Under the pieces are notes generated by a model. That model had not been told where the DNA came from. It made no database searches and saw only the letters and a program-made list of their open reading frames with translations. A stretch of 64,000 bases of DNA from a virus. The stretch is from IMG/VR virus record IMGVR_UViG_3300025695_000007, positions 1 to 64,000 of that record; one strand, 5' to 3'. A program made the translations under genes and the position numbers. Below are positions 581 to 17,829 of this stretch, piece by piece (the stretch's first letter is position 1; every line of letters begins with the position of its first letter).

Positions 581-588
581 TAACCTCA

Positions 589-1188
589 ATGAATTTATTT
601 TATTTAGACCAAGACCTGGATAAGTGTGCGCAGTACCATGTTGACAAGCATATAGTAAAAATGCCTTTAGAAGTAGCACAGCTAATGTGTACCGCAATAT
701 GGGTAGATGCTCATCTAGGTTTTGTACCTCGAGCTCTTAACAAAGAAGAGCGTGACCACCTCAACGAACTTAAGAAAGAAATCAAACACCTTTCTATGGA
801 AGAAAGACCTCTTACACCTTACCTGCCTATGATGTACAATCACCCCTGTACTATATGGGTGCGTTCGTCTTTAGATAACTTTGAGTGGACACACTGTTAC
901 GGCAATGCTCTGAATGATGAGTACTACTATCGCTATGGCAAGCAGCATAAGTCTATAGTTGATGTAGTAAACAAACTACCTGAGCCTAAGAATATGCCTA
1001 GGAATGGTTTTACTACATTCGGCTTAGCAATGCCAGACGATTTAAAAGACTATGATAATCCTATACAATCGTACAGAGATTATTATCACTTAGATAAAGC
1101 AACCTTCGCTACTTGGTCACATAGAGATAGACCTGAGTGGTGGGACGACAACTACGCAATGTATGACAGAAGGATAACTGCAAAGTGA
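589..1188 (+). CDS. Conserved phage protein of unknown function
   Basis: A 199-residue cytoplasmic protein beginning MNLFYLDQDL. It has the blocks YHVDKHIVKM near the N-terminus, NHPCTIWVRSS in the middle and DEYYYRYGKQH further on, a pattern I recall from many marine phage genomes, where it has no firm function. The Asp, His and Tyr/Trp-rich blocks hint at a metal- or nucleic-acid-binding enzyme, but this is not established. It follows promoter P1 and overlaps thyX by four bases (GTGA), so it is probably cotranscribed with nucleotide metabolism. Its GGAG ribosome site (574-577) lies in the second arm of an inverted repeat. Confidence 0.75.
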   Translation: MNLFYLDQDLDKCAQYHVDKHIVKMPLEVAQLMCTAIWVDAHLGFVPRALNKEERDHLNELKKEIKHLSMEERPLTPYLPMMYNHPCTIWVRSSLDNFEWTHCYGNALNDEYYYRYGKQHKSIVDVVNKLPEPKNMPRNGFTTFGLAMPDDLKDYDNPIQSYRDYYHLDKATFATWSHRDRPEWWDDNYAMYDRRITAK

Positions 1189-1832
1189 AAGTTAAACTAA
1201 TCAGCCATTCAAAAGGAATGGGAGGAAATACATTACTAGAAGATATAGCATATATTGCGCGAGTATCTAACCCTAGTAATCAAAACAATACAGCTACGTC
1301 AGAAAAGTTAATACGATATCTTATCAAGCATAAACACTGGTCTCCTTTCGAGATGGTATCTGTGTGCATGGAGATTGAAACTACTCGTGACATAGCAAAA
1401 CAGATACTACGTCATCGCAGCTTCTCCTTTCAGGAGTTTAGTCAGCGATATGCTGATCCTGAAGACCTAGGAGTATTTGTACTTCGAGAAGCTAGGATGC
1501 AAGACACTGAGAATCGTCAGAATAGTATTGAGTGCGATAATCTACACGTTGCAGCTTTTTGGGAAAACTCTCAGAGAAATGTAATCAGTGCTGCTCAGAT
1601 GGCGTATGAGTATGCTATCAAATCAGGTATAGCAAAAGAGCAGGCTCGTGCAGTACTTCCAGAGGGTTGCACGCCTACGCGTATGTATATGAACGGAACT
1701 CTACGAAGTTGGCTTCATTACATAGAAATCCGTAGCGGGGTCGAAACACAGAAAGAACATCGAGAAATAGCTCTAGAAGCTGCCTGTCAATTGAGTCCGA
1801 TTTTTCCTATGATAAATGAATTTATTAGTTGA
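1185..1832 (+). CDS. thyX: FAD-dependent thymidylate synthase ThyX
   Basis: A 215-residue flavin-dependent enzyme that methylates dUMP to dTMP using methylene-tetrahydrofolate and NADPH. The ThyX signature is clear: RHRSFSFQEFSQRY, matching RHR followed by the conserved Ser and SxRY, within a conserved N-terminal context (HWSPFEM). Near the C-terminus the blocks ARAVLPEG and LRSWLHYIEIR are those of the nucleotide-binding half. Length is normal for the family. The GTG start overlaps the upstream gene. It supplies dTTP for replication together with the ribonucleotide reductase at 19110-21849. Confidence 0.95.
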   Translation: MKVKLISHSKGMGGNTLLEDIAYIARVSNPSNQNNTATSEKLIRYLIKHKHWSPFEMVSVCMEIETTRDIAKQILRHRSFSFQEFSQRYADPEDLGVFVLREARMQDTENRQNSIECDNLHVAAFWENSQRNVISAAQMAYEYAIKSGIAKEQARAVLPEGCTPTRMYMNGTLRSWLHYIEIRSGVETQKEHREIALEAACQLSPIFPMINEFIS

Positions 1833-1857
1833 CAGAATGCTTATAATTCAGTATAAT
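1829..1857 (+). promoter_or_regulatory. Sigma70-type promoter P2
   Basis: TTGACA (1829-1834), 17-base spacer, TATAAT (1852-1857), overlapping the stop codon of thyX. It should start at about 1864 and serve the gene at 1880. Unlike most promoters here it lacks the preceding TTC. Confidence 0.88.
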
Positions 1858-1879
1858 ATATTTTTATTTGGAGAGTTAG

Positions 1880-2281
1880 ATGGCTGAAGGCAAAAAATAT
1901 GATGGCGGAAAGCCCCAGATGCACCTGCTTCCTCCCAAAGCTATAGAACAAGTAGCTGAAGTATTGACATTTGGTGCAGTAAAGTATGGCGAACACAACT
2001 GGAAGAAGCTAGACAACTTACAAAACAGATACACTAGTGCAGCTCTGAGACATATCTTTCAAAGCATGGAACAAGAGCTAGATGAAGAAACTGGATGCTA
2101 TCACGAAGCACATGCAATATGTTGTTTATTATTTAAATTGGAGGCTAAACTAAATGAGGCGCGGAGTAAAGAAGAAGGACTACGAGAATCTGAGCGCAGC
2201 CAACATCAAGAAAGTGATATCTCTATTGACCCCTGGAGAGGGTACTTCACAGTCGGCGATTACGAAGAAAGCGGCGTGTGA
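1880..2281 (+). CDS. dATP/dGTP diphosphohydrolase-like protein (DUF5664-like)
   Basis: A 133-residue helical protein. The first 95 residues match what I know of the phage family with the opening GKKYDGGKPQMHLLPP, followed by EVLTFGAVKYG, HNW, ALRHI and the acidic block DEETGCYHEAHA. These acidic and His residues resemble the metal site of all-alpha NTP pyrophosphohydrolases, suggesting dNTP hydrolysis or sensing. The last 40 residues are also the first part of the next gene in another frame, so that tail may be non-essential read-on. Ribosome site GGAG at 1870-1873. Confidence 0.7.
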   Translation: MAEGKKYDGGKPQMHLLPPKAIEQVAEVLTFGAVKYGEHNWKKLDNLQNRYTSAALRHIFQSMEQELDEETGCYHEAHAICCLLFKLEAKLNEARSKEEGLRESERSQHQESDISIDPWRGYFTVGDYEESGV

Positions 2282-2876
2282 TATGCTCAACATCTCGTAC
2301 AACACTACGAGATTGGATAGAATCATTGAAGATTTCTTAGAGACACAAGCATATGTCGCTAAGCGTAAGTCAATGAATCGTGGTAAGCCTGCCACTGATA
2401 TGGAGATTGGAGAGGCTGTAATGAGCTATCTTCAGGGTGCTACAATAGCAGATATTGCTAAGGGTTTGTATCGCTCTCCATCATTCGTCAAGAATTTGAT
2501 CGAAAGGGTTGGTGTACCACAAAGACTTACTTCAAAAGATCAAGCAAGAGAAATAGACTATCTTCCAGATGAGTGTGTTTCTGATTCTTTTGAGATAGGT
2601 GAGATAGTCTGGTCTGCTAGGTATCATCGAGCAGGTACAGTTATGCAAGAATTAAGTCCTACTTATGTTCAATCTAGGAAGGGTCTAGCGAATACTAACT
2701 ATGAAGAAAAGTATGCGTGCAAATGCTATGATATACATATCTCAGAAGCTACAGACAGCGAAGACTCTATGTTTCCAGGCGTATCTGCAGGTGGGTTCTT
2801 TGCCTCTTCTGCAGCCTACGACCTCGGTAAACTCTCACACTTAGAGAAATATGGCATAAATCTCAAGACCTTATAA
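2154..2876 (+). CDS. Probable helix-turn-helix DNA-binding protein
   Basis: A 240-residue protein starting MRRGVKKKDYENLS. Residues 20-60 and 80-120 contain two helix-turn-helix-like segments (AACDMLNISYNTTRLDRII and ATIADIAKGLYRS followed by FVKNLIERVGVP), while the C-terminal half is of unknown fold. It is widespread in marine phages as an unnamed protein. The start lies 128 bases inside the previous gene in a different frame, but is supported by a strong GGAGG at 2140-2144 nine bases upstream. It may regulate transcription or bind phage DNA. Confidence 0.65.
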   Translation: MRRGVKKKDYENLSAANIKKVISLLTPGEGTSQSAITKKAACDMLNISYNTTRLDRIIEDFLETQAYVAKRKSMNRGKPATDMEIGEAVMSYLQGATIADIAKGLYRSPSFVKNLIERVGVPQRLTSKDQAREIDYLPDECVSDSFEIGEIVWSARYHRAGTVMQELSPTYVQSRKGLANTNYEEKYACKCYDIHISEATDSEDSMFPGVSAGGFFASSAAYDLGKLSHLEKYGINLKTL

Positions 2877-2886
2877 AAAATAATTC

Positions 2887-2916
2887 TTGACAACTTGCTA
2901 GAAACTTTTATATAAT
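2887..2916 (+). promoter_or_regulatory. Sigma70-type promoter P3
   Basis: TTGACA (2887-2892), 18-base spacer, TATAAT (2911-2916), preceded by TTC. It should start at about 2923, ahead of the GTG-started gene at 2950, whose transcript is closed by the terminator at 3336-3372. The 120-residue protein is therefore probably a strongly expressed single-gene unit. Confidence 0.88.
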
Positions 2917-2949
2917 ATTATTTCAAATTTAAGACAGGAGTAAAAAATC

Positions 2950-3312
2950 GTGGCATGGGACGACGATAAGAAAGCAGCAGTAATTGAAGCGTACGAAGAG
3001 CAAAACCCAACACCTGAGAACTCGATGGAAATCGTGAAAGACTTAGCTGATGAATACGAAGAATCGCCTAATGGTGTTCGTATGATTCTAACTAAAGCTG
3101 GTGTTTATGTTAAAAAGACTCCAGCCGCTTCAACTAAATCTTCTGGAGGCACTAGTGCTGGCGGTACGCGAGTATCTAAAGTAGCCGCCCAGGAGTCGTT
3201 AATAGCCGCACTCACCGATGCGGGTCAAGAAATCGACAATGATATTGTGGATAAATTGACAGGTAAAGCTGCCCAGTATTTTGCTGGAGTAATTGCCGCT
3301 ATTAATGCCTAA
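2950..3312 (+). CDS. Small HTH-like DNA-binding protein
   Basis: A 120-residue protein with a GTG start (AGGAG nearby). Residues 1-57 form a single helix-turn-helix-like unit ending SPNGVRMILTKAGVYVKK, which resembles each of the four units in the protein at 5835-6560. A Ser/Gly/Thr-rich linker (residues 58-77) joins it to a short helical Ala-rich C-terminus. It sits alone between promoter P3 and a strong terminator, as expected for an abundant regulator or nucleoid-like protein. Function is inferred from the fold impression only. Confidence 0.65.
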   Translation: MAWDDDKKAAVIEAYEEQNPTPENSMEIVKDLADEYEESPNGVRMILTKAGVYVKKTPAASTKSSGGTSAGGTRVSKVAAQESLIAALTDAGQEIDNDIVDKLTGKAAQYFAGVIAAINA

Positions 3313-3335
3313 ATCCAAGCCTTAATAAGCCTGGT

Positions 3336-3372
3336 AAACGTCAGAGAGTTCCCCGCTCTCTGGCGTTTCTTT
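3336..3372 (+). terminator. Intrinsic terminator after the 120-residue gene
   Basis: A 13-pair stem (3336-3348 with 3356-3368, one G-U pair) closes a 7-base loop and runs into TTTCTTT. It lies 24 bases after the stop at 3312 and ends the P3 transcript. Confidence 0.9.
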
Positions 3373-3442
3373 GCATCTACATCTTTCACCAAAGAAGTCA
3401 GCATTGCAAAAGATTTTGCTAACCTGCAACAAAGGAAGAAGG

Positions 3443-3712
3443 ATGAAAAAAGAAGCTTTAGCCAGCCTAGTACATGACTATGGTGATGCTGTGATAACAT
3501 ACAGAAGTGAAAACTCGAATAAGTTGAAGTACAATGTTTGTACTCTTGACTTTTCTACCCCCTATATACAAGGAAAAACTAGCAGAGCCAAAGAAGATAA
3601 AACTACTTTATTGCTTTTTTGCTGGGATACTGACTCCTATAGACTCTTAAAACCGTCTACTGTAACCAGCGTAGTTCCGTTAGCTTCCGTACTCAAAAAC
3701 GGAAGGTATTAA
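3443..3712 (+). CDS. Small phage protein, function unknown
   Basis: An 89-residue protein. I chose the ATG at 3443 because AAGGAAGAAGG lies directly upstream; a longer frame to a TTG at 3371 would begin inside the terminator. The protein contains FSTPYIQGK, FCWDTDSYRLL and a C-terminal VLKNGRY, a block pattern I recall from T7-like and marine phages. It is beta-rich and perhaps an SH3-like fold. Its stop overlaps the next ATG (TAATG), so the two are translationally coupled. No promoter is visible after the terminator, so expression may rely on read-through. Confidence 0.6.
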   Translation: MKKEALASLVHDYGDAVITYRSENSNKLKYNVCTLDFSTPYIQGKTSRAKEDKTTLLLFCWDTDSYRLLKPSTVTSVVPLASVLKNGRY

Positions 3713-4011
3713 TGGACTTATATCAAGCGCCCGAACTTTACGAAAGAGTAATACATTACGATTCTGAGAAAGAAATTCAGATTCGTTTGACTATTAGTAA
3801 CTTTCGAGGAGTAGAATATCTCAGCCTTCGAAAATACTATCTTGACTTTTTCGAAGAGTGGAGACCTACTCCTGAAGGTATTTCTATGCCTATTGATTTC
3901 TCTAATTCAAAAGAGTTGTTTATAGGTCTAACAGAGATTCTATCGCTTGCAGAGTCGAAAGAAATTATAGAAGAGAACTTCAAAGACTTAATTCAGGACA
4001 TCTACAAATAA
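3712..4011 (+). CDS. Small phage protein, function unknown
   Basis: A 99-residue acidic protein coupled by TAATG to the gene before it. It has a beta-rich first half (EIQIRLTISNFRGVEYLSLRKYYLDF) and a helical C-terminal half (FIGLTEILSLAE). The first half has the look of a transcriptional coactivator p15/PC4-like DNA-binding domain, in which a strand pattern with FRG...YL.LRKYY is typical. That would fit a single-strand or promoter-binding role, but it is a judgement by eye. Confidence 0.6.
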   Translation: MDLYQAPELYERVIHYDSEKEIQIRLTISNFRGVEYLSLRKYYLDFFEEWRPTPEGISMPIDFSNSKELFIGLTEILSLAESKEIIEENFKDLIQDIYK

Positions 4012-4014
4012 TTC

Positions 4015-4043
4015 TTGACTTCTACCTTATAGTTGTATATAAT
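4015..4043 (+). promoter_or_regulatory. Sigma70-type promoter P4 (ligase, first gene)
   Basis: TTGACT (4015-4020), 17-base spacer, TATAAT (4038-4043), preceded by TTC. It should start at about 4050 and serve the ligase gene starting at 4070. Confidence 0.9.
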
Positions 4044-4069
4044 ATACATATAAATGAAAGGAGCAAGTT

Positions 4070-5014
4070 TTGAAAAAGTTTTTAGATGACGCTAGTAGTG
4101 CTTACTATCAAGGCACTCCACTTCTATCAGACGAAGAGTTTGATAGATTGGCTGAGAAGTACTCCTATAATCAAGTTGGACACACTACCTCTGGTGGGAC
4201 TCCTCACCTCTACAAAATGTACTCTCTTCAGAAGTTCTTTGAGCTGGACGGTGTTTGCAGCAACTTAGAAGATTATGTAGCTACTCCTAAGTTAGACGGC
4301 GCAGCAGTATCTATTCTATATGTTAATGGAAAGTTAGCAATGGCTCTTACTCGTGGTGATGGCATAAAAGGTCAAATCATCACGGATAAGATAGCCTATC
4401 TTGTTCCTAACGAAATTCTACTTACAGGCACTGTTCAGATTACTGGAGAGGTTGTATGTCCTTCATCTGTGGCAAATGCTCGTAACGTCGCAGCGGGGTC
4501 ACTAAATCTTAAAAGTATAGAAGACTTTAAGACTCGCCCAGTAGAGTTTGTAGCATATGATGTACAAGGCGATATTGACTTCAGAACTTGGGTACGAGCA
4601 ATGCTTGCCCTAGAGTTTCAAGGTTTTAAGTCTGTATATAAATTTGACGCAAGTAACTATCCTACAGATGGTATTGTGTACCGAATCAATGATTATGAAG
4701 TTTTCTTCGAGATGGGCTTTACTGCTCATCATCCTAGAGGAGCTTTTGCTTTTAAAGAGCAAAAGGAAGGAGTGGTAACAACACTTCTTGATGTTGTGTG
4801 GCAGGTAGGCAAGAGCGGAGTTGTCAGTCCTGTTGCAATTCTAGAGCCTATTGTAATAGGTGAAGCTACGATAGCCCGAGCTACGCTACACAATATCGAA
4901 TACATACGGGAATTGAATCTAGAAATAGGTTGCCAAGTCGAGGTTATTAGGTCTGGAGAAATTATACCAAGAGTTGTCAAAAGAGTAGATGACCTTGCAA
5001 AAAATAATTCTTGA
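4070..5014 (+). CDS. NAD+-dependent DNA ligase, adenylation and OB subunit
   Basis: A 314-residue protein with a TTG start after AAAGGAG. It holds the N-terminal two thirds of a LigA-type ligase. A short Ia-like region (SAYYQGTPLLSDEEFDRL) precedes the adenylation domain with the nucleotide-accepting lysine in TPKLDGAA, TRGDG, ITGEVV, ARNVAAGSLN, DGIVYR and AFAFKEQ. The OB-fold follows (VVWQVGKSGVVSPVA to ATLHN). It ends where the zinc finger should begin, and that part is encoded by the next gene, 53 bases on. Together they would seal nicks using NAD+. The same split is known in T5-like phages. Confidence 0.9.
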   Translation: MKKFLDDASSAYYQGTPLLSDEEFDRLAEKYSYNQVGHTTSGGTPHLYKMYSLQKFFELDGVCSNLEDYVATPKLDGAAVSILYVNGKLAMALTRGDGIKGQIITDKIAYLVPNEILLTGTVQITGEVVCPSSVANARNVAAGSLNLKSIEDFKTRPVEFVAYDVQGDIDFRTWVRAMLALEFQGFKSVYKFDASNYPTDGIVYRINDYEVFFEMGFTAHHPRGAFAFKEQKEGVVTTLLDVVWQVGKSGVVSPVAILEPIVIGEATIARATLHNIEYIRELNLEIGCQVEVIRSGEIIPRVVKRVDDLAKNNS

Positions 5015-5039
5015 CTTTTACCTTAGATTTCCGTATAAT
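5011..5039 (+). promoter_or_regulatory. Sigma70-type promoter P5 between the two ligase genes
   Basis: TTGACT (5011-5016), 17-base spacer, TATAAT (5034-5039), preceded by TTC. It overlaps the stop codon of the first ligase gene and should start at about 5046, giving the second gene its own transcript. Confidence 0.9.
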
Positions 5040-5067
5040 ATCTTTTCAACTTTGAGGAAGAACCCGA

Positions 5068-5835
5068 ATGATAGAAATTCAAGCTCCGACACATTGCCCT
5101 TCGTGCAACTCGTCACTTGAATGGTCCAACCATCTGCTATACTGTAGAAATTCTAATTGTCATTCTCAATCAGCTAAAAAGCTGGAGCATTTCGCAAAAA
5201 CACTAAAAATCAAGGGACTTGGTCCTGCCTCCATAAGTAAGCTGGGATTGACCAGCTTAGAGGAAGTCTATTCCCTTGAATTAAGTGATCTTTGCGAGAA
5301 GCTCTCTTCCGAGAAGTTAGGACACAAACTGTTTTTAGAAATAGAAAACTCTAAGAAAGTAGGTCTTGAGACTTTGCTGCCCGCTTTTAGTATTCCTCTG
5401 ATTGGTAGAACTGCCGCAGAAAAATTATCTAAAGTCTGCAACAATATTATAGACATAGACTACGATAGCTGCGCTAAAGCCGGTCTAGGCGAAAAAGCAA
5501 CAGAAAGTCTCATTTCTTGGCTACAGAAAGATTTTTATTCCTATTACGATGGTATGTTACCCTTTAGCTTCGATTTTAGTAAAGCCTCTAGTAGTGTCAG
5601 TAATGCACCCAAAGGTACAGTTTGTATCTCGGGCAAATTAAATAGTTACAAAACTAAGGCTGAAGCAACTAAGATTCTTGAAGATCTAGGGTACATTGTC
5701 AAGAGCAGTTTAACAAAAGAGGTAGGGATTCTAGTAAACGAAAGCGGCATAGAATCACTGAAAACTCAAAAAGCCAGAGAGTCTGGCGTACAAATAATTA
5801 ACAACCTTAAAACTTTTATTTTGGAGAATATATAA
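5068..5835 (+). CDS. NAD+-dependent DNA ligase, zinc finger, HhH and BRCT subunit
   Basis: A 255-residue protein carrying the C-terminal third of LigA. A four-cysteine zinc finger (CPSC near residue 10, then LYCRNSNC) is followed by helix-hairpin-helix repeats (KTLKIKGLGPASISKLG; PAFSIPLIGRTAAEKLS) and a BRCT domain (GTVCISGKLNSYKTKAEA, then LEDLGYIVKSSLTKEVGILV). It lacks any adenylation residue and so must act with the protein of 4070-5014. It has its own promoter, P5, and the next gene starts on its stop (TAATG). Confidence 0.9.
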   Translation: MIEIQAPTHCPSCNSSLEWSNHLLYCRNSNCHSQSAKKLEHFAKTLKIKGLGPASISKLGLTSLEEVYSLELSDLCEKLSSEKLGHKLFLEIENSKKVGLETLLPAFSIPLIGRTAAEKLSKVCNNIIDIDYDSCAKAGLGEKATESLISWLQKDFYSYYDGMLPFSFDFSKASSSVSNAPKGTVCISGKLNSYKTKAEATKILEDLGYIVKSSLTKEVGILVNESGIESLKTQKARESGVQIINNLKTFILENI

Positions 5836-6560
5836 TGGCAGTCCCTAAGTGGAATGACGAACGCACAACGCAACTCACTAACTTCATTGGTGATGAAGCT
5901 CCCGTATCACAAGCAACTGTAGCAGGCGCTGCAGAGGCTCTCGAAACTTCTTCTCGCTCAGTTTCTAGCAAGCTGCGTAAGATGGGCTTCGACGTAGAAC
6001 TTGCTTCTGCAGCTGGAGGCAAAGCCTTCTCAGCTGATCAAGAAGCAACTCTTGCTACATTTGTAGAAGACAACAGCGGCAGCTACACTTATGCTGAAGT
6101 TGCACAGTACTTCGAGAATGGAGCGTTTTCCGCCAAGCAGATTCAAGGTAAGATTCTGTCAATGGAACTGACTGGTCATATTAAACCTGCTCCTAAAGTT
6201 GAATCTGTAAAAACTTATACAGATGCTGAAGAAGCTAAGTTTATTGATCTGGTCAACTCTGGCGCATTTGTTGAGGCAATTGCCGAAGCAATGGATCGTA
6301 GCGTAGCATCTGTTCGTGGTAAGGCTCTCAGCCTTCTTCGTTCAGGCGCAATCGACGCTATTCCTCGTCAGGAAAGCACCAAGTCTGCATCAAAAGAAGA
6401 CCCCCTGGCTTCTATTGATAACATCGCAGACCTTACAGTAGAGCAAATTGCAGAGACTATTGGCAAAACTGTTCGTGGTGTTAAGACTATGCTAACTCGT
6501 CGTGGTATCACTGCTGCGGATTACGATGGTGCTGCAAAACAACAAAAAGCTGCACAGTAG
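5835..6560 (+). CDS. Protein with four tandem HTH-like units
   Basis: A 241-residue protein of four similar units of about 50-60 residues, each ending in a recognition-helix-like segment: SSRSVSSKLRKMGFDV, SAKQIQGKILSMELTG, SVASVRGKALSLLRSG and TVRGVKTMLTRRGITA. Each is preceded by two predicted helices, giving a Myb- or HTH-like array that could read an extended DNA site. A single similar unit occurs in the 2950-3312 protein. The start is coupled to the ligase stop (TAATG; GGAG upstream), and a strong terminator follows at 6575-6605. It may be a phage regulator or origin- or nucleoid-binding protein; no named family is claimed. Confidence 0.7.
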   Translation: MAVPKWNDERTTQLTNFIGDEAPVSQATVAGAAEALETSSRSVSSKLRKMGFDVELASAAGGKAFSADQEATLATFVEDNSGSYTYAEVAQYFENGAFSAKQIQGKILSMELTGHIKPAPKVESVKTYTDAEEAKFIDLVNSGAFVEAIAEAMDRSVASVRGKALSLLRSGAIDAIPRQESTKSASKEDPLASIDNIADLTVEQIAETIGKTVRGVKTMLTRRGITAADYDGAAKQQKAAQ

Positions 6561-6574
6561 TATAGTTTCATCAG

Positions 6575-6605
6575 GCGCTAGTTATTTTGACTAGCGCTTG
6601 TTTTT
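6575..6605 (+). terminator. Intrinsic terminator before the helicase gene
   Basis: GCGCTAGT (6575-6582) pairs with ACTAGCGC (6590-6597) across a 7-base loop and is followed by TTGTTTTT. The helicase starts only 24 bases later with no promoter in between, so the terminator probably attenuates rather than blocks. Confidence 0.9.
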
Positions 6606-6628
6606 AGTTAGGTTCGGGAGACCTTAGA

Positions 6629-7978
6629 TTGAATATCGCCAGTGCTTTAATCAAGCAAGTCATTGCTTTGCAAGACTTCGAGACTTGGAGCCGGTTGCGT
6701 AAGCATTACTTACCTTCAGAGTATCACACTCTATACAAGGTTATTGACTCTCATTGCGATAAGTATCATCAAGTGCCTACATTTGATGATCTTCGCTATG
6801 AGATTCGTGACGGTGCTACACGGGACAGGCTCTATGCTATAGAAGGCATAGAAGTAGAGGCAGATCCTCTACACCTGCTCGAGTACCTAAAAAATGAGTA
6901 TGCACAAAAGGAAATTCTAGGGTCTCTTGAAACTTACGTAGATCAGTCTGTAGCTTTTGAAGATGCAGACGAATCTCTTGCACATCTTCACCAGATCGTT
7001 CTTGATGTAGAAAATAAAATTGATCTCAAAGATCCAGAGGAGAATATGCAATATATTCCTCTCTTCGATCCTGATGAAGAAGTAAGCAAGTACCTGCCTC
7101 TAGGTCTTAATGCTGAATACGATGATAAGATTAAGTTCTCTCCGAGAGACCTTATCCTTGTGGGCGGTCGACGTGGGGCAGGTAAATCTATAACTTGTGC
7201 TAACCTTGCCAACAATGTATTTAACTCAGGCAAGTCTGCAATCTATTTCACTATAGAAATGGATAGTCGCCAAATTCTCCAACGTTGCGCCTCAATCGCA
7301 ACGGGGATACCGTTCTCGAGACTAAAGTTGAAAAACCTTAGTGTTACAGAATGGGAAAAGGTTGCTGGATGGTGGGCTAACCGCTTTCAGCAGGGTGATG
7401 AGCGTTTGAAAGAGTACAAACAACATAGAGACTTCGAAAAATTCCATCGTGCATTGACAACTACCTGTGAGCTTCTCCCGACTCAACAGCTAGATGTTGT
7501 GTACGACCCATCTTTGACCATATCCAAAATCAAAGCGGAATTAGATAAGAAAGTTAAATCGTTGAATGTAGGTGTAGTCATTGTTGACTATATCAATCAA
7601 GTAAAGCGCTCAGCACTACCTTCTCGTGGTGGACAGTATGACTGGACTGAGCAGATAGAAGTTAGTAAGGCATTAAAAGCAATGGCACAAGAATTTGAAG
7701 TTCCAATATTCTCTCCATATCAAACCGATGCAAGTGGTGAGGCTAGATTCGCAAAAGGTATTCTAGACGCTGCAGATGCTGCATACGCTCTTGAGACCTG
7801 GAGTCCTGAAGATGGCTGCATCACTTTCAAGTGTGTTAAGATGCGTAATAATTCTATGGATTCATTCACCTCCACTATGGAGTGGGATTCATTGAAGATT
7901 GGTCCAGAGACTTCTCTATCTCCTAAGGAGGCTGAGGACTCTGAGCATAAAACTGGTGAAAGTATTGACGATCTTTAA
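6629..7978 (+). CDS. Replicative DNA helicase, DnaB type
   Basis: A 449-residue RecA-fold hexameric helicase that would unwind DNA at the fork. The N-terminal 150 residues form a helical domain; the Walker A motif is GGRRGAGKS (Lys186), followed by AIYFTIEMDSRQILQRCAS, the usual DnaB-family segment, and a Walker B-like VVIVDYINQV. The start is TTG at 6629 with GGGAG eight bases upstream. Primase is a separate gene (8495-9322), unlike the fused T7 gp4. The gene lies directly after a terminator, so it depends on read-through or an unseen weak promoter. Confidence 0.88.
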   Translation: MNIASALIKQVIALQDFETWSRLRKHYLPSEYHTLYKVIDSHCDKYHQVPTFDDLRYEIRDGATRDRLYAIEGIEVEADPLHLLEYLKNEYAQKEILGSLETYVDQSVAFEDADESLAHLHQIVLDVENKIDLKDPEENMQYIPLFDPDEEVSKYLPLGLNAEYDDKIKFSPRDLILVGGRRGAGKSITCANLANNVFNSGKSAIYFTIEMDSRQILQRCASIATGIPFSRLKLKNLSVTEWEKVAGWWANRFQQGDERLKEYKQHRDFEKFHRALTTTCELLPTQQLDVVYDPSLTISKIKAELDKKVKSLNVGVVIVDYINQVKRSALPSRGGQYDWTEQIEVSKALKAMAQEFEVPIFSPYQTDASGEARFAKGILDAADAAYALETWSPEDGCITFKCVKMRNNSMDSFTSTMEWDSLKIGPETSLSPKEAEDSEHKTGESIDDL

Positions 7979-7986
7979 AATACTTC

Positions 7987-8015
7987 TTGACACTTCTGCT
8001 ATTTTTTAGTATAAT
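7987..8015 (+). promoter_or_regulatory. Sigma70-type promoter P6 (replication operon)
   Basis: TTGACA (7987-7992), 17-base spacer, TATAAT (8010-8015), preceded by TTC. It should start at about 8022 and drive the run of overlapping genes from 8050 through 14016. It lies inside the inverted repeat 7996-8037. Confidence 0.9.
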
Positions 8016-8037
8016 ATACATATTAAATAAATAGCAG
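7996..8037 (+). repeat. Inverted repeat around the P6 -10 box, enclosing the ribosome site
   Basis: Perfect 9-base arms CTGCTATTT (7996-8004) and AAATAGCAG (8029-8037) flank the -10 box. The second arm overlaps the start of the AGGAG ribosome site (8036-8040) of the gene at 8050. Read-through RNA contains both arms; RNA started at about 8022 contains only the second. This is the same geometry as at 542-580. Confidence 0.72.
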
Positions 8038-8049
8038 GAGTTTTTCTTT

Positions 8050-8340
8050 ATGATGGTTTTTACGGATAACCGTTACAGACCAATTTCTCGTAAACGTAAA
8101 AAGTTGCCCCCCAAACCAAAGCGAACTAAGCCTAAGTTTGTACCCTATGTCCCTTCATCAAAGGTATTTCGTAGGGAAACTCCAGATTACCCATCTGTAG
8201 TATCAAAGTCAACAGACCTCACTAAAGAAGACGACAGCTATAAGTTAGAAGTGTCTAAGAAGTACACTTTAGCCCCTGCCTACAACAAAGGCGCTTATCA
8301 AGTAATTAGTATAGACAATGTGGAGCATATAGGAAAATAA
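8050..8340 (+). CDS. Conserved small phage protein, function unknown
   Basis: A 96-residue protein. Its first 45 residues are very basic and Pro-rich (RKRKKLPPKPKRTKPKF), then comes FRRETPDYPSV, a block I recall from small proteins near the replication genes of marine podo- and siphophages. The second half is neutral. The basic tail suggests nucleic-acid contact. AGGAG lies nine bases upstream of the chosen ATG, inside an inverted repeat. The stop overlaps the next start (TAATG). Confidence 0.65.
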   Translation: MMVFTDNRYRPISRKRKKLPPKPKRTKPKFVPYVPSSKVFRRETPDYPSVVSKSTDLTKEDDSYKLEVSKKYTLAPAYNKGAYQVISIDNVEHIGK

Positions 8341-8498
8341 TGAAACCCTCACCAATTATGTCAGAAGATGTTTACAGATTTCTAAAGAATCTAGTAGACC
8401 CAGGCAAATTTGGGCATGCAGTAACTGCCGAAGTAAGAGATGAAGCCAGAGTATTACTAGGTTTAGGAAGAGCAGAAACGGAGCAGTATAGAACGTGA
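8340..8498 (+). CDS. 52-residue phage protein, function unknown
   Basis: A short gene starting on the stop of the previous gene (TAATG) and ending over the GTG start of primase (GTGA), so all three are translationally coupled. The product begins MKPSPIMSEDVYRFLKNLVD and has a helical amphipathic character with PGKFGHAVTAEVRDEARVLL in the middle. The tight overlaps on both sides and clean coding character support it. No function is recognised; it may assist the primase. Confidence 0.65.
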   Translation: MKPSPIMSEDVYRFLKNLVDPGKFGHAVTAEVRDEARVLLGLGRAETEQYRT

Positions 8499-9322
8499 CA
8501 GTAGAAGAATTATTAACTAAGAAAGATATACCCTTTCATATGAAGGGAAAGGATCTCTTAGTACGATGCCTCAATCCTGAGCACGATGATTCTAACCCTA
8601 GTATGCGAATAGATCAAGTAACTGGAATATTTAATTGCTTTTCCTGTGCTTACAAGGGTAATCTGTTCTTTCTCTACGGAGAAAAAGTAAATCAACTACA
8701 GCTTCGAAGAGATTTACTAAAACGTAAAATACTGCAGAAACGATCAGAGAGTGTTGGACTTGTAATGCCCAAAGGTGCAGAACCTTACAGCGGGGATTGG
8801 CGGGGTCTCAAACCAGAGACATATATAAAGTTCGAAGCATTTCAACACCATGATCCTGACTACATAGGCCGCATCGTATTTCCAGTACGAGATATTGCAG
8901 GAAACATTGTAGCCTTTAATGGTCGTCATACAGCAAACGGACTACCTAAGTATAAAATTAGTCCTGTAGGAGCAAAGTTACCTTTCTACCCCAAAGTAAA
9001 TTCTAGGGATGGTAAAATAATACTTGTAGAAGGTATTTATGATATGTTAAACTTACATGATAAAGGATTAACAAACGCAGTATGTTCTTTTGGAACAAAG
9101 AATGTAAGTGAAGAAAAACTAGAAATTCTAAAAATGCAGGGAGTCGAAGGAATAGACATATTCTTCGATGGAGATGACGCAGGACAAAAAGCAGCAAAAA
9201 CAATAATTGATATGTGTGAGAAAGTTGGTCTCACTACCAGGAACATCCATTTAGAAGGAACTGACCCTGGTGAACTATCAGAAACTAAAGTAACTACACT
9301 AGCGAGAAAATTATATGCCTAA
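8495..9322 (+). CDS. DnaG-type DNA primase
   Basis: A 275-residue primase that makes RNA primers for lagging-strand synthesis. The N-terminal CHC2 zinc site is Cys25, His30, Cys48 and Cys51. The TOPRIM catalytic core follows, with Glu179 in ILVEGIYDML and Asp225/Asp227 in FFDGDDAG. It is shorter than bacterial DnaG (about 580 residues) because it lacks the helicase-binding C-terminal domain. GTG start, overlapping the upstream gene; its end overlaps DNA polymerase by eight bases. Confidence 0.92.
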   Translation: MTVEELLTKKDIPFHMKGKDLLVRCLNPEHDDSNPSMRIDQVTGIFNCFSCAYKGNLFFLYGEKVNQLQLRRDLLKRKILQKRSESVGLVMPKGAEPYSGDWRGLKPETYIKFEAFQHHDPDYIGRIVFPVRDIAGNIVAFNGRHTANGLPKYKISPVGAKLPFYPKVNSRDGKIILVEGIYDMLNLHDKGLTNAVCSFGTKNVSEEKLEILKMQGVEGIDIFFDGDDAGQKAAKTIIDMCEKVGLTTRNIHLEGTDPGELSETKVTTLARKLYA

Positions 9323-11588
9323 AGTCGCATTAATAGAGACTAAACCTAGCAAGACCAATTTCCGACAAGAGTTTGATGGAGCTTTCGAGTTCGATCAGTT
9401 TCAACTATGTTCAAATCCTACAATTAAGAAAGTTCTCAAGCGAGATTGTGATATCGAAGTAGATATCAATCTTTACGACTGGATTATTCTAGTAGGTAGT
9501 GATGCGCTCAAGTATTTCACTAAAATTAATTCTGTAACTGAATACTCAGGCAAGGTAGTTGAGCAGAAGTTCCTGCCTGTCATTAACCCTGCAATGCTTG
9601 CATTTAAGCCAGAGGCTCGTAAGACTTGGGACGACTCCAAGCAAAGCATCATTGACTTCATCAGTGGAAAGAAAGAAGAAGTGTTAGTAGATGACAGTAT
9701 AGCTTTTGGTATTCAAGATACTGCAACTGCAAATGCGTATATTCAAGCTGCAATCGACTACGATTATACTCACGTAGCACTTGACTCTGAGACTACTGGT
9801 TTGTACCCTCGTGATGGCTATATGCTTGGCTTATCTCTATCTTATGATGGTGTCAAAGGGGCGTATATTGACACTGAGTGCTTTGATGAAACAACAGAGG
9901 CTCTACTACAAGAACTCTTCAACAAGAAGACTGTGATCTTTCACAACGCAAAGTTCGACTTAGCGTTCTTTGAGTATCACTTTAACTTTAACTTTCCAAG
10001 TATAGAAGATACTATGCTTCTTCACTACTTGATTGATGAAAACCCTGGTACTCACGGACTCAAGCAGCTTGCTATGAAGTACACTCCTTATGGAGACTAC
10101 GAGCAGCCTATGTATGACTGGATTGCTGAGTATCGTAGAAGTCATGGCATTCTCAAGGAACAGTTTTCTTGGGACTTGATTCCTTTTGACACTATGAAAA
10201 CTTATGCTGCAATGGACTCTCTCGTTACTTTTCTAGTCTACGAGAAATTCAAGAAGATCAAGGAAAACAAAAAACTTCTTTGGGTATACGAGAACATACT
10301 GATTCCAGGCACTAGGTTTCTTCTTAATGTTCAGGACCATGGCGTTCCTTTTGATCGTCAGCGTCTTCTAATAGCTCAAGAGCTTATGCAGTCTGATATT
10401 GATGAGGCAGTCAAAACTCTATACAAAAATCCAGCTATTGCTAGATTCGAGGAAATTAATGCAAAACCTTTTAATCCTAACAGTACTGTTCAACTGCGTA
10501 GTCTCTTGTTTGATTTTCTTGGCTTGTCTCCAACAGGAAAGAAAACTGGCACAGGTGCAAACTCGACTGATGCAGAAGTCTTACAAGAACTCTCAGAAAA
10601 GTCGGAAGTACCTGGATTGATTCTTGATATTCGTCAGAAGTCTAAAATCAAGAATACATACCTTGACAAGATTATTCCACAGCTTGACAAAGATAGTCAT
10701 TTGCGTACTGGTTTCAATCTTCACGGCACTACTTCTGGACGTCTAAGTTCTAGCGGTAAGCTCAACATGCAACAACTGCCTCGTGATAATCCAATTGTCA
10801 AGGGCTGTATCAAAGCAAGGCCAGGACATAAAATTGTTGCAATGGACTTAACAACAGCCGAGGTTTATGTTGCAGCAGTTCTAGCAGACGACAAAGCTCT
10901 TATGGATGTTTTCCGCTCAGGCGGTAATTTTCATAGTACAATCGCTAAAACAGTTTTCAAGCTGTCTTGTGATGTAGAAGATGTTGCAACTTTGCACTCT
11001 GTAGAACGTCAAGCTGCTAAGGCTGTAACTTTCGGTATTATGTACGGTGCTGGAGCTAGAAAGATTAGTCAAGAAGTTACAAAGAGTTCTGGTACTTTCT
11101 TTAGCCCTACAGAAGCTCAAGAAGTTATTGACGACTACTTCAAGACTTTCCACAAGCTAAAAGCTTGGATCAAAAACAATGAAAAATATATTGAGCAAAA
11201 TGGCTTTATATATAGTTTCTTTGGTAGAAAGCGCAGACTGCCTAATGTGGCATCAACTGATAAAGGTATTAAAAGCCATACAATCAGGTCGGGTCTAAAC
11301 TTTCTAGTACAGTCTGCCGCCTCTGACATTAACTTGCTCGGTGGTATAGATATGGAATCGTTTATACGTGCAAATGGTATGAAGTCTCAAATCTTTGCAC
11401 TCGTACATGACTCCATTTTGGCAGAAGTCCCAGAAGATGAAATCGATCTTTACCAAGAGAAGCTACAGCATTTTATACAGATGGATAGAGGTATTACTAT
11501 CTCTGGTGCTCCTGTAGGCTGTGACTTTGAGGTAGGGGAAGACTACTCAATGGGTAAGTTCACAAATAAGTACGGCGAGTATTTGTGA
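9315..11588 (+). CDS. DNA polymerase I-type (family A) DNA polymerase
   Basis: A 757-residue replicative polymerase with proofreading. The 3'-5' exonuclease has Asp157 and Glu159 in LDSETTGL and FHNAKFDLAFFE. The polymerase core has TSGRLSS, motif A with Asp511 (MDLTTAEV), motif B RQAAKAVTFGIMYG and motif C HDS with Asp699. No 5'-3' exonuclease domain is present; that activity is encoded at 18277-19110. The residue equivalent to E. coli Phe762 is Phe573, the wild-type-like state; in marine phages this position (Phe, Tyr or Leu) has been linked to lifestyle. An N-terminal region of about 130 residues is unassigned. Confidence 0.95.
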   Translation: MPKVALIETKPSKTNFRQEFDGAFEFDQFQLCSNPTIKKVLKRDCDIEVDINLYDWIILVGSDALKYFTKINSVTEYSGKVVEQKFLPVINPAMLAFKPEARKTWDDSKQSIIDFISGKKEEVLVDDSIAFGIQDTATANAYIQAAIDYDYTHVALDSETTGLYPRDGYMLGLSLSYDGVKGAYIDTECFDETTEALLQELFNKKTVIFHNAKFDLAFFEYHFNFNFPSIEDTMLLHYLIDENPGTHGLKQLAMKYTPYGDYEQPMYDWIAEYRRSHGILKEQFSWDLIPFDTMKTYAAMDSLVTFLVYEKFKKIKENKKLLWVYENILIPGTRFLLNVQDHGVPFDRQRLLIAQELMQSDIDEAVKTLYKNPAIARFEEINAKPFNPNSTVQLRSLLFDFLGLSPTGKKTGTGANSTDAEVLQELSEKSEVPGLILDIRQKSKIKNTYLDKIIPQLDKDSHLRTGFNLHGTTSGRLSSSGKLNMQQLPRDNPIVKGCIKARPGHKIVAMDLTTAEVYVAAVLADDKALMDVFRSGGNFHSTIAKTVFKLSCDVEDVATLHSVERQAAKAVTFGIMYGAGARKISQEVTKSSGTFFSPTEAQEVIDDYFKTFHKLKAWIKNNEKYIEQNGFIYSFFGRKRRLPNVASTDKGIKSHTIRSGLNFLVQSAASDINLLGGIDMESFIRANGMKSQIFALVHDSILAEVPEDEIDLYQEKLQHFIQMDRGITISGAPVGCDFEVGEDYSMGKFTNKYGEYL

Positions 11589-12076
11589 TAATCACCTACA
11601 AAACTATTAAAAAGATTGAGTTTCCTGTCTTTGTTCTTCCTAGTGATAACTGGAGCTTACAAGACGGGCTGCTCTTTCTTGACAACGAAATAATAGATGA
11701 TAAAAATATGCCTGGAAAGACTCTTGGTATCAGAAGACTGCAAAGTCCTTTTGAGATGAAATCATTGAATAAATCAATTAGTAGCTTTGTAGGTATTTTA
11801 AAGCAGTCGAAGAATGCTTTTATCGATTCAAACGGTGTTCCATTTATATACCACAAAACGGAAAGGTGTTCTTTAAAATATCAAAAAATAACGAAGATAG
11901 TACGCAGGGACGTAGCTAGTTTAGTCTATATAAAAGGTTGCAACTCACCTTTTACAGTCCCTCGACCTCCTTTGCCTCAAATGACTTGGGCGGGGATATT
12001 ACATCTTCACGGGCTTCCTTGGGAGCTATACGAGTATTCTGAAGAATTTAAAAAGAATACTTGGAGAAAAATATAA
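11585..12076 (+). CDS. Conserved phage protein of unknown function
   Basis: A 163-residue protein overlapping polymerase by four bases. It carries LLFLDNEIIDDKNMPGKTLGIRRL near residue 30, FVGILKQSKNAFIDSNGVPFIY in the middle and VPRPPLPQMTWAGILHLHGLPWELYEYS near the end, a pattern I recall beside polymerase and PhoH genes of marine phages. It has no recognisable enzyme motif or membrane segment. The constant position next to the polymerase suggests a replication or repair accessory. Confidence 0.72.
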   Translation: MIITYKTIKKIEFPVFVLPSDNWSLQDGLLFLDNEIIDDKNMPGKTLGIRRLQSPFEMKSLNKSISSFVGILKQSKNAFIDSNGVPFIYHKTERCSLKYQKITKIVRRDVASLVYIKGCNSPFTVPRPPLPQMTWAGILHLHGLPWELYEYSEEFKKNTWRKI

Positions 12077-12736
12077 ATGGCAAAAAGAAACAGACTACTA
12101 GCAGCAGCAAACTTACAATTAGCAGAAATTGAACCTCTTACAAAGAATCAGTTAAAAGCTTTTGAATCTGATAAGCATCTCGTACTACATGGAGTTGCAG
12201 GAACAGGAAAAACATTTATATCATCTTATCTCGCATTTGATGATATACTAAAAAATGAATTTTCTAGTTTAGTTATTATTCGTAGCGCAGTACCCACCAG
12301 AGACATTGGATTTCTGCCTGGCAATGAAAAAGAAAAATCTTCAGTATACGAAGACCCCTATAAAGATATATGTATAGAACTTTTTCAGCGAGGAGATGCT
12401 TACGAAATACTAAAACAAAAAGGATTGGTTCATTTCATGACAACCTCTTTTATACGAGGAGTCACGTTAAGAGATGCAGTAGTTTTAATAGACGAGTGTC
12501 AAAATATGTCTTTTCATGAACTAGACTCTATCATCACTCGAATGGGTGAAAACTGTAGAGTTATGTTCTGTGGAGACTTTAGACAAGCAGACCTGCCCAA
12601 TAACGGGCTAAGTGAGTTTATTCGCATACTAAAAGCAATGGACGAGTTTACTCTAATAGACTTTGAAGCTGCTGATATTGTACGAAGCGGCTTCGTAAAG
12701 AAATACATTATCGCAAAATCAGACTTGGGCTTATGA
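12077..12736 (+). CDS. PhoH-like ATPase
   Basis: A 219-residue P-loop ATPase. Walker A is GVAGTGKT, Walker B is VVLIDECQNM and a sensor-type segment is VMFCGDFRQADLPN, with FIRGVTLRDA in between, all as in the PhoH family. PhoH proteins are common in marine phages, where their role is unresolved; RNA or nucleotide metabolism has been proposed. The gene sits directly against its neighbours (0 bases before, 4-base overlap after). Confidence 0.88.
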   Translation: MAKRNRLLAAANLQLAEIEPLTKNQLKAFESDKHLVLHGVAGTGKTFISSYLAFDDILKNEFSSLVIIRSAVPTRDIGFLPGNEKEKSSVYEDPYKDICIELFQRGDAYEILKQKGLVHFMTTSFIRGVTLRDAVVLIDECQNMSFHELDSIITRMGENCRVMFCGDFRQADLPNNGLSEFIRILKAMDEFTLIDFEAADIVRSGFVKKYIIAKSDLGL

Positions 12737-14016
12737 AAGCAGTATTAAGTAACAGAATATTTATGGACTGTACTCCAGAGTTGCAGGAGTCCATAGATAA
12801 AGAATTAACCTATAAAATACCTTCGTGGAGTCCTGAAGAGCCTCCACAAGTTATTAAAAATATGGGTATAATTCGAAAAGGTCTTATCACTATTCCTATT
12901 GGAAGAACTGATTTGATCCCAAGCGGATATGAGATAGTTGACAAGCGTCTGGAGATAGCTGCTGACTTTCCTAAGTTTAAATTTGAGCTTCGAGAGAGTC
13001 AGCAAGCTGTTTACGATGAAATACAAGATAATGCTATTATCAATGCTTGGGTTAGCTGGGGCAAAACCTTTACGGGGTTAGCCATAGCAGGAAAACTTGG
13101 GCTAAAAACACTAATTGTAGTTCATACTGTTCCACTACGAAACCAATGGGCAAAAGAAGTAAAGAAAGTCTACGGATTCGAACCCGGCATCATTGGTAGT
13201 GGAAAATTCGAACTAGATAAACCTATAGTTATAGGAAATACCCAAACACTGTACCGCAATATAGATAAGATTCGCAAGGAATTTGGGACAATCATCTTAG
13301 ATGAGATGCACCACGTAAGCAGCCCAACGTTTTCCAGAATTTTGGACATAAGCCATGCTAGGTATAAGATTGGATTGTCAGGGACCATAGAAAGAAAGGA
13401 CGGTAAACACGTAGTTTTTCGCGATTACTTTAGCTCTAAGGTATTTAAGCCGCCAAAAGAAAATTTCATGACTCCTACAGTGCATATTGTAAAGTCAGAC
13501 ATACGATTCTTAGACGGTGCAAGAACTCCTTGGGCTAACAGAGTCACCCATCTTGCTAACAATGAAGAATACAGACACACTGTAGCAATGTTAGCCGCTG
13601 CTTACGCTCAACGAGGCCATAAAGTCTTGGTAGTAAGTGATAGGGTGGGCTTTTTACGAAGCTGCGCCGAACTAACAGGAGAAAAAGCAGTTTGTGTTAC
13701 GGGTGAGGTAGCGCATGAGGACAGAGAAACGCTAGTGGACGGAATTTTGTATGGAGATAAGAATGTACTGTACGGAACTCAAGCAATTTTCTCCGAAGGG
13801 ATATCAGTGAATACTTTAAGCTGTTTAATTTTAGGTACTCCAATCAATAATGAGCCTTTACTAACTCAGTTGATAGGAAGGGTAATAAGACTACAGGAAG
13901 GTAAGATGTCTCCCGTAGTTGTAGATATCCATCTGAAAGGCAACACTGCTAATAGACAGGCTTCAAATAGAGTAGGCTATTATATGAAGCAAGGCTATAA
14001 GATTACACAGATATAA
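12733..14016 (+). CDS. DEAD/DEAH-type superfamily 2 helicase (UvsW-like)
   Basis: A 427-residue DNA helicase, likely for fork remodelling or recombination. An N-terminal 75-residue region precedes the Q-like ESQQAVYDEI, Walker A WVSWGKTFTG (a variant in which Trp-Gly replaces Gly-x-Gly before Lys), motif Ia VVHTVPLRNQW, motif II DEMH, motif III GLSGTIERKDG, and motif VI QLIGRVIR. The order and length match phage UvsW/XPB-like helicases. It overlaps phoH by four bases and is followed by promoter P7. Confidence 0.88.
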   Translation: MKAVLSNRIFMDCTPELQESIDKELTYKIPSWSPEEPPQVIKNMGIIRKGLITIPIGRTDLIPSGYEIVDKRLEIAADFPKFKFELRESQQAVYDEIQDNAIINAWVSWGKTFTGLAIAGKLGLKTLIVVHTVPLRNQWAKEVKKVYGFEPGIIGSGKFELDKPIVIGNTQTLYRNIDKIRKEFGTIILDEMHHVSSPTFSRILDISHARYKIGLSGTIERKDGKHVVFRDYFSSKVFKPPKENFMTPTVHIVKSDIRFLDGARTPWANRVTHLANNEEYRHTVAMLAAAYAQRGHKVLVVSDRVGFLRSCAELTGEKAVCVTGEVAHEDRETLVDGILYGDKNVLYGTQAIFSEGISVNTLSCLILGTPINNEPLLTQLIGRVIRLQEGKMSPVVVDIHLKGNTANRQASNRVGYYMKQGYKITQI

Positions 14017-14026
14017 AAAATAGTTC

Positions 14027-14055
14027 TTGACAAAAAGGTTAAATTTTAGTATAAT
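14027..14055 (+). promoter_or_regulatory. Sigma70-type promoter P7
   Basis: TTGACA (14027-14032), 17-base spacer, TATAAT (14050-14055), preceded by TTC. The predicted start at about 14062 falls just inside the next gene, whose ATG is at 14059, so this RNA would lack that ATG and may mainly serve the ssDNA-binding gene at 14469. Confidence 0.85.
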
Positions 14056-14058
14056 ATC

Positions 14059-14466
14059 ATGTTTTTATATAATTGGAAAAAAATATATGATGCGGCAGGT
14101 GGTAGAACTACCGAAACAGTCCGCATATTCGAGATGCTAGTAAAAAGCAAGATTCCAAATAATAGATACGACAAGATTTACAAGTATCGTAATACAGACT
14201 TTAGTGGGAGAAGTTTTTTAGTGCACGAAGATGTGTTATTATTTAACTCCTTTCGCTACAGCCACCGTGAAATCGCGGTATACCTTTCGATAGCTAGCTT
14301 ACGCAAATTACCGCATTGGATAGCTACGAAAGACACAACCCTAGACTTGCTTCATGTACCTGATGAAGATGTAGTCCTTGAATCAATTTATGAAAGTAGA
14401 CTACTTTATGTAGAAAATAGAAAAGTACATTTTTTATATGAAGAAGCCCCAATGGAGAAACACTAA
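14059..14466 (+). CDS. Conserved phage protein of unknown function
   Basis: A 135-residue protein starting MFLYNWKKIYDAAGG. The N-terminal block (RIFEMLVKSKIPNNRYD), FSGRSFLVHEDVLL, IAVYLSIASLRK and the ending VHFLYEEAPME resemble a conserved protein that precedes the ssDNA-binding gene in marine podo- and siphophages, so I think this N-terminus is right. The ATG lies only three bases after the -10 box of P7, too close for that promoter to include it, and there is no Shine-Dalgarno. How it is translated is unclear. No downstream in-frame ATG precedes residue 26. Confidence 0.7.
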   Translation: MFLYNWKKIYDAAGGRTTETVRIFEMLVKSKIPNNRYDKIYKYRNTDFSGRSFLVHEDVLLFNSFRYSHREIAVYLSIASLRKLPHWIATKDTTLDLLHVPDEDVVLESIYESRLLYVENRKVHFLYEEAPMEKH

Positions 14467-14468
14467 AA

Positions 14469-15101
14469 ATGGCAATATCATTTAATCAGCAAAAAGGTTC
14501 AGCACAAAAATCATCAATCGAAACTTTCTCTTTCCGAGATGGCGACAACAAGATGCGTCTTGTAGGAGACGTACTGGCTCGCTATGTCTATTGGATAGAA
14601 GGTGAAAATGGCAAAAACATTCCTTTAGAGTGCTTGTCTTTTGACCGTAACAACGAGCGATTCACTAATCTTGAGAAAGATTGGGTTCGTGAGTACTATC
14701 CTGACCTCAAGTGTGGCTGGAGCTACGCTATGCAGTGCATCGATCCTGCTGATGGAAAAGTCAAAGTAGTAAACCTAAAGAAGAAGCTGTGGGAGCAAAT
14801 TATTACTGCTGCAGAAGACTTGGGCGATCCTACAGATAAAGAGACTGGCTGGGACGTATGTTTCAAGCGAGTTAAAACAGGGCCTCTGCCATACAACGTA
14901 GAGTACCAATTGCAAGTACTAAAGTGCAAGCCTCGTCCACTAGATGAAAGCGAAGTGGCTTCTATTGCCGACCTCAAATCAATGGATGAAGTAATGCCTC
15001 GTCCAACTCCAGATGCGCAGAAAGAGCTTCTTGACCGTGTACGTGCTCCATCTCAGGAGCAAATGGATGAGTCCCTCGAAGAAGAGTTTAATATTGGATG
15101 A
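14469..15101 (+). CDS. Probable single-stranded DNA-binding protein
   Basis: A 210-residue protein with the layout of a phage SSB. An N-terminal half carries FRDGDNKMRLVGDVLARYVYW and WSYAMQCIDPADGKVKVVNL, with the strand pattern of an OB fold. The C-terminal tail is acidic (DESLEEEFNIG), as expected for contact with polymerase, primase and nucleases. It has GGAG a few bases upstream and overlaps the SbcD-like gene by four bases. The position between helicase and recombination genes fits. Confidence 0.7.
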   Translation: MAISFNQQKGSAQKSSIETFSFRDGDNKMRLVGDVLARYVYWIEGENGKNIPLECLSFDRNNERFTNLEKDWVREYYPDLKCGWSYAMQCIDPADGKVKVVNLKKKLWEQIITAAEDLGDPTDKETGWDVCFKRVKTGPLPYNVEYQLQVLKCKPRPLDESEVASIADLKSMDEVMPRPTPDAQKELLDRVRAPSQEQMDESLEEEFNIG

Positions 15102-17828: not shown

Positions 17829-17829
17829 T

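Follow-up and report, generated by a model that had tools for sequence, protein, structure and literature searches.

Why should a phage place the promoter of a replication operon inside an inverted repeat, one arm of which reaches into the Shine-Dalgarno (SD) sequence of the first gene of that operon? The question is raised by promoter P6 of a virus whose record is 78,691 bases long; the window, meaning the whole stretch of DNA analyzed here, is its first 64 kb. The proteins of the virus suggest a distant kinship with the T5 group. Its helicase, primase and capsid proteins are about 30–47% identical to those of T5-like phages, and a DNA-level search against named phages returned short matches only, with no close relative. 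As in T5, the NAD-dependent ligase genes are split. (On the minus strand at 54735-56714, T5-like prohead protease and major capsid protein are both matched by a single ORF, which looks like a fusion of the two genes.) Strong sigma-70-type promoters lie between codirectional genes, at 533 (P1), 1829, 2887, 4015, 5011, 7987 (P6) and 14027 (P7). The surroundings of P6 are as follows.

6629 to 7978, plus strand: gene for a DnaB-type replicative helicase, upstream of P6 (ORF, Pfam).
7987 to 8015, plus strand: promoter P6, with TTGACA at 7987-7992, a 17-nt spacer and TATAAT at 8010-8015 (12 of 12 consensus bases).
7992 to 8004, plus strand: left arm ACTTCTGCTATTT, inside the promoter spacer and in read-through RNA only (sequence).
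8005 to 8028, plus strand: inner extension and 7-nt loop (8013-8019), containing the -10 box (minimum-energy fold of 7979-8075).
8029 to 8041, plus strand: right arm AAATAGCAGGAGT, in the leader of the P6 transcript (sequence, fold).
8036 to 8040, plus strand: SD AGGAG, completely within the right arm (sequence).
8041 to 8049, plus strand: U-tract TTTTTCTTT, abutting the stem ahead of the ATG at 8050; candidate intrinsic terminator (d-score, orthologs).
8050 to 8340, plus strand: first gene behind P6, 96-aa protein, start ATG 8050 (ORF; orthologs in relatives).
8340 to 8498, plus strand: 52-aa ORF, its start overlapping the stop of the 96-aa gene (ORF).
8495 to 9322, plus strand: DNA primase (Toprim, CHC2 zinc finger), its start overlapping the preceding stop (ORF, Pfam).

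The 96-aa protein, for which a Pfam search found no family, the 52-aa ORF and the primase are followed by DNA polymerase I-type genes. The start/stop overlaps in this operon (8338-8342 and 8495-8498) are compatible with translational coupling. Upstream, a canonical intrinsic terminator (CAGGCGCTAGTTATTTTGACTAGCGCTTG followed by TTTTT) lies at 6572-6600, between a 241-aa gene and the helicase gene, and there is no clear promoter ahead of the latter, so that its expression seems to rely on terminator read-through. Because the helicase gene sits behind this terminator, its mRNA may only rarely reach P6.

According to the original prediction, 9-base arms flank the -10 box and the second of them overlaps AGGAG. 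The two arms, CTGCTATTT (7996-8004) and AAATAGCAG (8029-8037), match exactly as reverse complements on either side of TATAAT, and the overlap turns out to be larger than supposed. In the RNA, the helix extends outward via a U·G, a U-A, a C-G and an A-U pair to 13 pairs (7992-8004 with 8029-8041), the one U·G being 7995-8038, and AGGAG is therefore wholly buried, not merely overlapped. The left arm starts at the final base of the -35 box and extends through the spacer. With the inner part included, the hairpin has 21 pairs and a 7-nt loop (7992-8012 with 8020-8041, one bulge). The fold of 7979-8075, with the -10 region as upper stem and loop and AGGAG fully paired, has a predicted energy of -25.8 kcal/mol (z -5.9), and none of 200 shuffles was equally stable. 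P6 transcripts presumably start near 8022. RNA from there to 8075 has an ordinary fold (z -0.2), and since the left arm lies upstream of the inferred start site, P6-initiated RNA would lack it. An Rfam 15 search of window positions 1-20000 found no RNA family at the gathering score.

The same design, in a sequence unrelated to that of P6, is found at P1 (533-561), where an 11-pair helix covers GGAG.

541 to 551, plus strand: P1 left arm GTGTCTCCATT, within the spacer that separates the boxes of the promoter at 533-561 (sequence, fold).
571 to 581, plus strand: P1 right arm AATGGAGACAT, containing GGAG and not followed by a U-tract; the gene at 589 comes next (sequence, fold).

The gene behind P1 (589-1188) has a weak match, below the curated cutoff, to the Pfam family Pyr_excise (pyrimidine dimer DNA glycosylase). 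A perfect 9-base match arose in 0.6% of spacer shuffles. The duplex energies are -17.7 at P6 and -18.0 at P1, and 0 of 2000 spacer shuffles reached either value. That two unrelated sequences of the same geometry are unlikely to arise by chance, as had been argued, is upheld by these shuffles and by the swap tests between orthologs described below.

The reading we favor, at a probability of about 0.8, is that P6 is a split hairpin whose use is decided by the origin of the transcript, read-through RNA being masked and probably terminated as well. An RNA entering from the helicase gene would have both arms, which would pair and bury the SD of the 96-aa gene; at the U-tract behind the stem, transcription would probably also end just before the start codon. 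An RNA started at P6, on the other hand, would begin inside the hairpin without the left arm, and would be neither masked nor terminated. P1 would work in the same way, by masking alone. We infer that the hairpin silences read-through RNA, masking and termination sharing in this effect, and that the coupled downstream genes (the 52-aa ORF and the primase) would be silenced with it.

If the hairpin matters to the phage, its arms should change together. Relatives were fetched from viral contigs via the primase, the helicase and the 199-aa gene; all are marine environmental contigs. A P6-type promoter was present behind the helicase gene at 297 relative loci, comprising 123 distinct sequences. 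In a swap test, the pairing of each spacer with its own leader was compared with its pairing to leaders taken from the other orthologs. Own pairs were far more stable than swapped pairs whether 111 P6 sequences (-11.3 versus -7.0 kcal/mol, z -17.9), 52 clusters (-10.4 versus -6.5 kcal/mol, z -11.3) or 31 clusters (-10.2 versus -6.4 kcal/mol, z -8.7) were used, and 0 of 20,000 permutations reached the real value. When promoters were grouped by downstream gene, the P6 signal was z -7.6. Orthologs of P1 gave z -7.0 (36 clusters) and, in a smaller set of 11 clusters, z -3.1. Covariation of the arms in related phages, the check proposed with the original prediction, is thus present at both promoters. 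The swap tests reduce the effect of shared ancestry and do not remove it, and the folding energies are predictions at 37 C for phages that are marine. Start codons were chosen automatically, and the known errors would be expected to dilute the statistical signal, not to produce it: the ortholog L143 was scored at a wrong start (its actual stem is -23.0 kcal/mol), and L030-L032 were omitted, though CTTCCATAC/GTATGGGAG are visible there.

The pattern of change within the helix agrees with this. In the fixed register of the window, 82% of the cells in 30 sequences are paired, as against 73% when shuffled and 40–55% when slid, and 42 cells are changed on both sides, against 17. On the helicase tree, pair 8 alternates between C-G and U-A, each side having changed about four times, and it is paired in 21 of 21 register-keeping sequences; between L270 and L272, which have almost identical helicases, pair 7 goes from G-C to A-U. 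Other lineages re-create the pairing in a different register or sequence (L083, CCTCCTCTA/TAGAGGAGG; L079, CACTCCTTCCATT/AATGGAAGGAGTG; L169; L284). Across 190 promoters of every type, the part complementary to the leader is chiefly the spacer between -35 and -10 (z -8.9); farther upstream, complementarity is marginal at best. Only about 40% of the P6 ortholog clusters reach a stem energy of -10 kcal/mol or better, and a few lineages lack a promoter or an SD at this position. In L097, L098 and L118, the ATG follows P6 after hardly any leader and lacks an SD, and the masking design therefore cannot apply. In a large subclade of P6 orthologs (L013-L027, L053, L064-L077 and others), the -10 region is palindromic (CGTATAATATACG), so that the -10 box itself forms the hairpin tip. 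A pattern scan of viral contigs returned 54 stretches, and all 52 of those newly fetched sit 11–12 nt behind a helicase gene. A similar exact pattern, covering close variants only, had no match in 84,980 bacterial and archaeal species genomes. The examined stretches of T5 and Vibrio phage pVp-1, where few promoters fit the strict pattern, held no strong case.

Could such pairing follow simply from base composition, since a spacer rich in pyrimidines would tend to pair with a purine-rich SD? Some pairing is indeed seen in swapped combinations (-6.4 kcal/mol), but own pairs at P6 and P1 lie far above swapped pairs of the same composition. Swapped leaders have the same gene position and the same kind of SD, so neither composition nor SD conservation can explain the excess, and the compensatory changes in the fixed-register helix also speak against it. 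The swap tests thus rule chance out at P6 and P1, and as an account of these two sites we give it a negligible probability; it may hold for P2–P5. The perfect 9- and 10-base arms centered near the -10 box of two promoters could alternatively be a DNA dyad, serving as the operator of a repressor or activator, or extruded as a cruciform. A dyad should tolerate G·T and A·C mismatches equally, and the arm search scored them alike, yet the P6 orthologs have 26 G·T and 2 A·C (p 3e-6); for all promoters, the numbers were 17 and 2, with about equal numbers in swapped pairs, and for P1 orthologs alone 9 and 3. The excess of G·T over A·C indicates selection on the sense RNA rather than on a DNA dyad. 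The sequences of P1, P6 and their orthologs are, moreover, unrelated and differ in register, and the SD is included in the arm, both of which also speak against a binding site. An operator or cruciform was accordingly rejected and is very improbable. Together, these comparisons show that selection maintains the pairing and acts on the sense RNA, where the promoter spacer supplies the left arm and the right arm contains the SD.

What, then, does the pairing do to the RNA? Here the strongest P6 stems, which run straight into a U-tract, resemble an intrinsic terminator whose loop holds a promoter. Of 17 strong stems, 14 lead directly into a U-tract, whereas of 35 weak stems just 2 do (Fisher 4e-8). 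A run of five Ts precedes the start codon in 88% of strong P6 leaders, the figure for ordinary SD leaders that have no promoter being 1.7%. At P6 of the window, the stem at 7992-8041 is followed by the U-tract within 0–2 nt, as in an intrinsic terminator. On a classical d'Aubenton Carafa-type d-score, it scores +11.8, and four relatives (L078, L079, L080 and L143) are also positive. The lower stem of 13 pairs has 5 G-C pairs, and the upper stem below the 7-nt loop consists of weak A-U and G-U pairs; it was not among the hits of a standard terminator scan, which covers loops of 3–8 and stems ending close to the tail. Termination of read-through transcription, which the original prediction did not consider, is an equally good or additional mechanism, and the P6 hairpin probably also terminates incoming transcription. 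One could go further and suppose that the stem and U-tract do nothing else than end the helicase transcript, with P6 inside to save space and the SD there by crowding, so that nothing is masked. This is possible but rather unlikely. In L009/L010 and L084, strong stems lack a U-tract, and the P1 family covaries with no U-tract before the start; because P1 and some P6 relatives have the stem alone, SD masking stands by itself. P6 unique sequences without a T-run still give z -6.0, although the signal is weaker in 32 such clusters (z -2.4), which implies that much of the P6 signal travels with the terminator-like form. Nearly all SD bases, furthermore, are within the stem: where stems are -10 kcal/mol or better, 89 of 95 are paired. 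Termination cannot be the whole story at these promoters.

The converse, that masking is all there is, takes the U-tract as an unstructured spacer between SD and start codon, past which read-through RNA continues, untranslated from 8050. It draws on the same buried SDs, on the relatives of P1 and P6 without U-tracts and on the precedent of T4 gene e (PMC3014915). Predicted SD accessibility in P6 orthologs is 0.27 in read-through RNA, 0.35 with a foreign 5' part and 0.58 in P6 RNA, and nearly closed SDs (accessibility <0.1) make up 40%, 17% and 2%, respectively; the change from own to foreign 5' part is modest (p 0.025). But masking does not predict U-tracts that accompany strong stems and are rare before ordinary starts, and as a complete explanation we consider it doubtful. 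A 21-pair hairpin might also be cut by RNase III, or might shield the 3' end of the helicase mRNA from exonucleases. The stem is long and stable enough, and such an element would be kept in the sense RNA, yet the position of the SD in the right arm and of the left arm in the promoter spacer would be left unexplained, and there is little likelihood of this being the main function. The combined reading, in which P6 masks and probably terminates and P1 masks, is the one carried forward here.

How general is the arrangement? The original prediction spoke of a general rule of promoter-dependent unmasking used by at least two operons. The two operons stand, since the arms of P6 and P1 covary and the pairing is that of sense RNA, and promoter-dependent unmasking of the ribosome-binding site in at least two operons is the best reading of the comparisons. 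The generality does not. Spacer-leader pairing at P2–P5 of the window is at chance relative to shuffles (p 0.18–0.54; P7 was left out of the pairing scores), and among promoter groups of the relatives there was no signal for LigB (z 0.2) or the 120-aa gene (z -0.8), and a weak one for LigA (z -2.6). A hairpin rule for every promoter is thereby rejected, and the design is, by these scores, a property of certain operon starts. Single promoters with similarly strong pairing occur at L132 2023 (ahead of a 217-aa gene) and L055 1252 (ahead of a ThyX-type gene), for example AAATTTCTCTTTTTGG/CCAAGGAGAGAAATT, so that the design appears sporadic beyond P1 and P6.

The principle itself is already known from phage T4, where longer early transcripts of e, soc, 49 and I-TevI form a helix across the SD, and a late promoter situated within that hairpin gives rise to a translated RNA without the 5' strand of the helix (PMC3014915, PMC2988022). 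In gene e, the structure cuts lysozyme synthesis about 100-fold (PMC3014915). P6 is like e, soc and I-TevI in that RNA started upstream would pair over the SD and promoter RNA, from the inferred start site, would lack the 5' strand. It fits the T4 type of switch on anatomy (SD in the helix, promoter past the 5' strand) and on covariation, the effect on translation being predicted. The T4 switches use phage late promoters (TATAAATA) and delay late or toxic products, whereas P6 is a sigma-70-like promoter with a -35 box, ahead of primase and DNA polymerase genes. P6 and P1 further differ in serving replication and metabolism genes, in having their left arms in the 17-nt spacer and in the U-tract behind many of the stems. 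What would be new relative to T4 is thus the use of host-type promoters of non-late operons, the repeated re-pairing across a viral group and, likely, the fusion with a terminator. Since related viruses keep the hairpin by matched mutations, the switch known from T4 looks widespread.

The terminator side has its own parallels. At nrdD/T5.100 of T5, an intrinsic terminator overlaps an annotated promoter region, stopping incoming transcription, which restarts at the promoter there, as proposed for P6. The T5 stem is wholly upstream of the promoter, however, whereas the AU-richer P6 hairpin has the -10 box inside it and the SD as part of its right arm. In IS200, one hairpin terminates impinging transcripts and another hides the ribosome-binding site (PMC3196728). 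These are two separate hairpins acting on a transposase, while at P6 one hairpin, split by the gene's own promoter, may do both. IS10 and IS50 are further insertion sequences protected against outside transcription. The extended start-associated sequences (ESAS) of Cluster K mycobacteriophages, by contrast, have one consensus per genome and mostly 4–13 bp spacers, unlike the P6 and P1 arms, which differ in sequence at every site, span the promoter and include the SD. A literature search, with most subscription journals outside its scope, found no single hairpin that encloses a sigma-70-type promoter and both terminates and masks.

A broader proposal, which we put slightly below even odds, is that a group of marine T5-related phages possesses a single compact element, some 60 bases long, which serves simultaneously as terminator, promoter and masked ribosome-binding site and insulates operons from one another. 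Incoming RNA polymerase would be stopped, any message that leaked through would be untranslatable, and the promoter in the hairpin would restart a readable message; the pairing would re-evolve in new sequences and registers, lineage after lineage. If this is true, closely packed codirectional phage operons would be insulated from their neighbors without a protein and with almost no extra sequence, by placing a gene's own promoter within a hairpin, and transcript coverage in such phages would not imply translation. The signature, a spacer complementary to its own SD, is simple and could be searched for in any phage genome, and the element would offer a compact insulated promoter-RBS part for gene-circuit design. 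For the phages themselves, a mechanism of a handful of T4 late genes would be extended to the host-type promoters of replication genes.
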